A stretch of 40,924 nucleotides of DNA, from NCBI GenBank assembly GCA_013334325.1, contig JAAXXT010000020.1:1-40924 (forward strand), given 5' to 3'. The notes beneath the pieces are model-generated. The model saw nothing but the letters and a program-made list of their open reading frames with translations. It was not told the DNA's origin and made no database searches. The translations under genes were made by a program, and so were the position numbers. This document shows, piece by piece, positions 21,101-23,236 of this stretch (positions are counted from its first letter, which is position 1; each line of letters begins with the position of its first letter). The stretch comes from Erysipelotrichaceae bacterium (GTDB lineage Bacteria > Bacillota_I > Bacilli_A > Erysipelotrichales > Erysipelotrichaceae).

Positions 21101-21457
21101 ATGACCAGTCGTTCAATGTGTGATGTAGCATTTGAGATCTTATCAACAAAGACAAAAGAAGTGCCTTTTATTGAGTTATGGGATGGGGTAGTTGCCCAAA
21201 TGGGTTTTACACCTTCTCAAGCTGAAAACAAGATCGCTCAGTTTTATTCTGCTTTGATGTTGGATGTTCGGTTTGCGCCTTTAGAAGGCAATGTATGGGA
21301 TCTAAGAACCCGTAGGACCTATCATGAGGTCCACGTCGATACCTCCAAGATCATCATCGAAGAAGAATTTGGGAATGTCGATGACGAAGATGAATATACT
21401 GTAAGTGAAGATGAAGTCGATTTCGACGGCGTCAAAAAAGAAGAAGAAGAAGAATAA
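21101..21457 (+). CDS. rpoE: RNA polymerase delta subunit
   Basis: A 118-residue protein. The N-terminal HARE-HTH domain (SMCDVAFEILSTKTKEVPFIELWDGV, then WDLRTRRTYHEV) is followed from about residue 85 by a disordered, strongly acidic tail rich in Asp and Glu, the hallmark of Gram-positive delta, which speeds recycling of RNA polymerase. ATG 21101 has AGGAGGG four bases upstream; a frame open from 21059 lies inside argS and is not used. The tail is shorter than in Bacillus subtilis. The position before pyrG is conserved in Bacilli. Confidence 0.95.
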   Translation: MTSRSMCDVAFEILSTKTKEVPFIELWDGVVAQMGFTPSQAENKIAQFYSALMLDVRFAPLEGNVWDLRTRRTYHEVHVDTSKIIIEEEFGNVDDEDEYTVSEDEVDFDGVKKEEEEE

Positions 21458-21473
21458 GGGCACTAGCCCTTTT
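21453..21473 (+). terminator. terminator of the argS-rpoE operon
   Basis: AAGGGC (21453-21458) and GCCCTT (21463-21468) flank ACTA, followed by T residues. The rpoE stop codon (21455-21457) is inside the stem region. Confidence 0.75.
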
Positions 21474-21529: not shown

Positions 21530-21558
21530 TTGAAGAGAACCCTCCAATAGTGTAGAAT
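21530..21558 (+). promoter_or_regulatory. pyrG promoter with GGGC transcription start
   Basis: TTGAAG (21530-21535) and TAGAAT (21553-21558) are 17 bases apart. The seventh base after the -10 begins GGGC (21565-21568), the initially transcribed sequence required for CTP-sensitive reiterative initiation. Confidence 0.8.
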
Positions 21559-21564
21559 AATAAA

Positions 21565-21606
21565 GGGCAGATGCCCCCACTGATTATGGGGCATCTTTTA
21601 TTTTTA
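21565..21606 (+). terminator. pyrG leader attenuator
   Basis: AGATGCCCC (21569-21577) pairs with GGGGCATCT (21588-21596) and is followed by TTTATTTTT. The five C of its 5' strand could instead pair with extra G residues added at the transcript start when CTP is low, preventing termination, as known for Bacillus subtilis pyrG. Confidence 0.8.
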
Positions 21607-21622
21607 TCCCGAGAGGAGATGA

Positions 21623-23236
<1,614 letters not shown>

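Follow-up and report, generated by a model that had tools for sequence, protein, structure and literature searches.

The leader of the CTP synthase gene pyrG in an Erysipelotrichaceae bacterium raises the question of whether a GGGC sequence followed at once by a hairpin could sense CTP, in the manner of the CTP-sensitive reiterative-transcription attenuator of B. subtilis pyrG reportedly described by Meng, Turnbough and Switzer in 2004. We analysed the whole stretch of DNA containing this gene, 40,924 nucleotides of contig JAAXXT010000020.1 (hereafter the window), from a genome of 1.95 Mb. The genes argS, rpoE and pyrG follow one another in this order, and the product of the last scored 812.8 bits against TIGR00337 (cut-off 462.75), which identifies it as CTP synthase and places the leader directly upstream of a CTP synthase gene. 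The gap between rpoE and pyrG holds, in order, the rpoE terminator, a promoter, GGGC, a hairpin with its T-tract, AGGAG and the pyrG ATG at 21629:

21101 to 21457, + strand: rpoE, RNA polymerase delta subunit, the upstream neighbour (TIGR04567)
21456 to 21471: rpoE's own terminator
21530 to 21558, + strand: sigma-70-type promoter, TTGAAG-17-TAGAAT (9/12 matches)
21565 to 21568, + strand: GGGC, presumed start +1 to +4, comprising the putative slippage tract GGG and the putative CTP-sensing first C
21569 to 21596, + strand: intrinsic terminator hairpin, +5 to +32 (predicted fold, -14.8 kcal/mol)
21573 to 21578, + strand: GCCCCC, predicted from folding as the target of a poly-G-extended 5' end
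21597 to 21607, + strand: T-rich tract of the terminator (from the sequence)
21614 to 21618, + strand: AGGAG, likely Shine-Dalgarno sequence (by eye)
21629 to 23236, + strand: pyrG, CTP synthase, the regulated gene in the proposed switch (TIGR00337)

The -35 begins at 21530 and, after a 17-nt spacer, the -10 ends at 21558; six nucleotides (AATAAA) separate it from GGGC, whose first G (21565) is the seventh base past the -10, exactly where the initial annotation had placed it. Because of this spacing GGGC would be the start of the transcript, 64 nt from the pyrG ATG. The terminator stem, formed by AGATGCCCC (21569-21577) and GGGGCATCT (21588-21596) and followed by the T-tract, has a pyrimidine-rich 5' arm, and GCCCCC falls within the predicted stem apart from its final C. 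The terminator had been described both as following GGGC immediately and as beginning four bases after it: the stem does start directly at +5, but its 5' arm opens with AGAT and GCCCCC comes later, so that there is no gap, the four bases belong to the stem and only the C-run begins beyond them. The layout is very short, as had also been claimed, but not the most compact, since in the shortest leaders found among relatives the stem ends at +20 (L155) or +21 (L148), as compared to +32 in the window. In several leaders of the order's other family the stem begins as early as +2 or +3, and the start sequence itself therefore belongs to the terminator. Elsewhere in the window a NiCo riboswitch (547-629, + strand, 48.8 bits) was the sole Rfam match.

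With the reported B. subtilis attenuator the window leader shares the gene, the GGGC start after the -10, a leader terminator and, in its 5' arm, a pyrimidine-rich stretch to which added Gs could pair; it differs in that its stem starts at +5, directly after GGGC. PMC4448216 reports reiterative starts at pyrG of S. agalactiae, where the start sequence is similar and a terminator lies upstream of the gene; it cites B. subtilis as the model for pyrG reiteration and reports that, more generally, units of two and three nucleotides are reiterated as well (AU, 15%). PMC6431027 reports an added G at the pyrG start of S. pyogenes, and PMC4403831 cites the B. subtilis work. Untemplated G addition at the pyrG start, backed in both streptococci by transcript data, is for the window leader a prediction from sequence.

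The proposed switch, of which the start site, the slippage, its dependence on CTP, the order of folding and the read-through are what we infer for the window organism, would operate as follows. Transcription would start at GGGC. With ample CTP the polymerase would move on past +4, the position of the first C, only to be stopped before pyrG by the terminator (+5 to +32). With scarce CTP it would wait at +4, slip on GGG and add Gs, and GGGC carrying at least two added Gs would pair with GCCCCC of the 5' arm as this arm emerges. Since the C at +4 can pair with the G at +9 and the Gs with CCCCC, two added Gs would complete six pairs. Once this pairing had been made first, the terminator would be absent and pyrG would be read.

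In the strongest rival to such a switch the promoter would be an ordinary one, the terminator would act constitutively, GGGC would be coincidental and CTP would not be sensed. Chance does produce GGGC past a -10 frequently, which counts against the switch: TANNNTN6GGGC matched three times in the window (2.31 expected) and 87 times in the genome, as compared to 63 for the same pattern read backwards. By itself the pattern is unremarkable, and its recurrence before pyrG is the part that is not due to chance. In the order, 62 leaders with GGGC and a nearby terminator were collected (50 distinct), and the promoter, the GGGC register and the pyrimidine-rich terminator arm recur across them; the -35 TTGA was present in 15 of 16 compared relatives' leaders, the window included, the exception (L086) reading TTGT. 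Between close relatives the C-run remains pyrimidine: CCCCC (L001), CCTCC (L180) and TCTCC (L003). A MAFFT alignment of 11 leaders, in which the hairpins were badly aligned with one another, served for no count. The survey was then widened from the order to the class and to five of its families, with the start tetramer restricted to G[GA]G[CT] and some genomes included twice. A leader was found in 209 of 310 pyrG upstreams (114 GGGC, 93 GAGC and 2 GGGT; 97, 82 and 1 distinct, respectively), the remaining 101 having none by these criteria. Because this search accepted only G[GA]G[CT], a second count set no limit on the tetramer found at -10+6, as long as a terminator followed. Over 287 distinct pyrG upstreams it gave 274 placements, in which GGGC occurred 93 times and GAGC 75 times, the next being TAAT with 10. 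Coincidence would not readily place either sequence at the exact register in 168 of 274 cases.

Folding bears on the same rival. We calculated the energy of the competing hairpin from the portion of each leader that precedes the 3' arm, extended by extra Gs, and compared the 50 leaders to 166 control terminators, taken from the window and part of the loci, with GGGC and one A placed before the arm. Without added G the two sets were alike (-2.20 for the leaders vs -2.31 for the controls, p 0.59, kinship ignored), whereas three added Gs gave -7.93 vs -3.50 kcal/mol (p 1.8e-15, kinship again ignored). Runs of at least five pyrimidines were found in 41/50 leaders and 40/166 controls; both the pyrimidine runs and the added-G energies count against a constitutive terminator. 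In the window the competing hairpin reached -6.7 as templated, where GGGC can already pair weakly with GCCC, a point against the switch, then -13.9 with three and -14.4 kcal/mol with six added Gs, the terminator itself being at -14.8. GG was the best of 13 alternative two-base units in 80 of the 97 distinct GGGC leaders.

Added Gs thus compete with the terminator when the leader is folded before its 3' arm, and partially at equilibrium. With nine added Gs the equilibrium probability of the terminator was 0.57 in the window and 0.81 on average in the 50 leaders, as compared to 0.97 and 0.95 with nine added As (hand-set hairpins were used for L124 and L161, where the automatic pick had been a more distant T-run downstream). 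That much of the terminator survives fits a constitutive element; for the switch, such persistence implies that the antiterminator would have to form first. As proof of a switch equilibrium folding was too weak, and the energy of the leader portion preceding the 3' arm, given above, took its place. A further control, in which the hairpin was reverse-complemented in place, was uninformative because the Cs move beside the T-tract, where added Gs also disrupt the hairpin. Given the recurrence of GGGC or GAGC, the pyrimidine runs and the added-G energies, the constitutive terminator is very unlikely.

Less probable again is a control in which CTP or GTP shifts the choice of start site, without slippage, as nucleotides do at some E. 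coli pyrimidine promoters. The A that precedes the tetramer in most leaders does offer alternative purine starts, and start-site switching at upp and codBA figures among the titles cited in PMC5730371; however, a shift by one or two bases would add A and not G and could not pair with CCCCC, and GGG is shared by all 97 GGGC leaders, the set having been defined by it, and by the 93 GGGC placements of the open count. Attenuation governed by a protein, for instance PyrR, or by a ligand, as in a riboswitch, is the least probable of all. PyrR does serve other pyrimidine genes of Gram-positive bacteria (PMC13328217), but 21530-21606 matched no Rfam family, whether PyrR-binding attenuator or other cis-regulator, and the leader spans only 32 nt to the end of the stem.

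The anatomy of the window leader, the conservation of its type and the folding energies of such leaders support the initial proposal, and on this comparison and modelling we hold it highly likely that the leader belongs with the B. subtilis pyrG attenuator and senses CTP in the same way. It is an ordinary, well-supported member of a known mechanism.

In other families the same survey uncovered GAGC in the GGGC register, in 82 distinct leaders (for example L189, L292, L271, L302, L018 and L022). GAGC was found in 8/8 genomes of family f13, in 26/26 readable genomes of f22 (which has a further gene, L257, without its start), in 14 of the 22 genomes of f17 with a match, in two of f4, in one of f12 (L221) and, from genus g106, in two of f11, whose other readable leaders are GGGC; it also occurred at 34 loci of genome_contigs. 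These leaders resemble the window in the gene, the -10+6 register, the first C at +4 and the terminator just downstream, and differ in having GAG for GGG and a target, [CT]TCTC, that fits an added GA unit. This motif lies within 75/82 GAGC leaders vs 17/97 GGGC leaders, and can therefore precede the change of start; L292 carries a long target, ACTCTCTC. An A stands at -1 in 82/82 distinct GAGC leaders vs 88/97 GGGC leaders, which fits the need of a two-base slip for it. The start would read (A)GAGC, the polymerase delayed at +4 by low CTP would add GA units, and GAGAGC would find its pairing partner, G[CT]TCTC, in the terminator region.

One GA unit gained a mean of 3.75 kcal/mol (median 4.10) in the 82 GAGC leaders vs 0.56 (median 0.00) in the controls, 266 terminators drawn from 88 loci, and a gain of at least 2.5 was seen in 68/82 vs 22/266. 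On GAGC targets GA was ahead of GG with one unit only (-3.75 vs -3.10), GG being better on average with three (-5.93 vs -4.63), and GA was the best non-GG unit in 56/82 leaders. AG units placed before GAGC (AGGAGC) are in the wrong register and gave no advantage; GA units are the register that was used. Nine GAGC leaders leave the motif's final C unpaired in the terminator and have a base other than G at -2; a G brought in by slippage would then be the sole partner for this C, which is suggestive, not strong. As an alternative to slippage, a transcript begun one base earlier, at the A of -1, would already pair with most of the motif. In a tree of 167 PyrG proteins the start type changed at least six times; the four independent pairs on supported branches, in which the motif follows in one to three and never goes the opposite way, gave no significant correlated change of start and motif, significance being beyond the reach of this test. 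One MAG (G340) carries both types. In the papers that could be searched, few of them subscription titles, neither a GAGC nor a dinucleotide attenuator of pyrG was found. From the leader comparison and the modelled energies we favour, with considerably less assurance than for the window, a sister class using AG-dinucleotide slippage, in which start and target would have changed together, a natural exchange between one-letter and two-letter stuttering.

Further pyrG leaders were seen along the way. In four GAGC leaders (L022, L032, L037 and L042) the 3' arm of the predicted terminator holds GGAGG just before the ATG, so that the ribosome-binding site, too, may be masked by the hairpin. In family f4, L214 and L291 have GAGGGT in place of GGGC or GAGC, with a CTCTCTC arm and no early C. 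Six pyrG copies from the window's own family (L090, L110, L167, L169, L171 and L172) lack GGGC and share another leader: roughly eight As, then CGRC and a hairpin enclosed in a terminator-like stem; those of L167, L169, L171 and L172 had no Rfam match. Yet another common leader, TTTTAAAACCC...GACATC...GATGTT with a T-tract, is found at L088, L096, L097, L157 and L164, without an Rfam match for the last two. At L094, L099, L103, L104, L107 and L173-L178, the frame before pyrG ends in what we take to resemble an ANTAR domain, possibly another mode of control. Finally, L331-L350 showed no leader in the 18 readable pyrG upstreams out of 20; most of these families have TGA codons inside pyrG, and they are probably Mollicutes, in which the attenuator before pyrG has been lost.

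Through the window element the range of a known CTP sensor takes in an uncultured relative of Erysipelotrichaceae, where the layout is very short, and the interest of the element comes mainly from the GAGC class reached through it. The sensing principle is a stutter-prone repeat closed by the scarce letter, and the survey suggests that a change of the repeat unit is tolerated if the terminator target follows. If true, the GAGC class would show directly what the slippage mechanism needs, and CTP control of pyrG would become readable from sequence in many uncultured bacteria.
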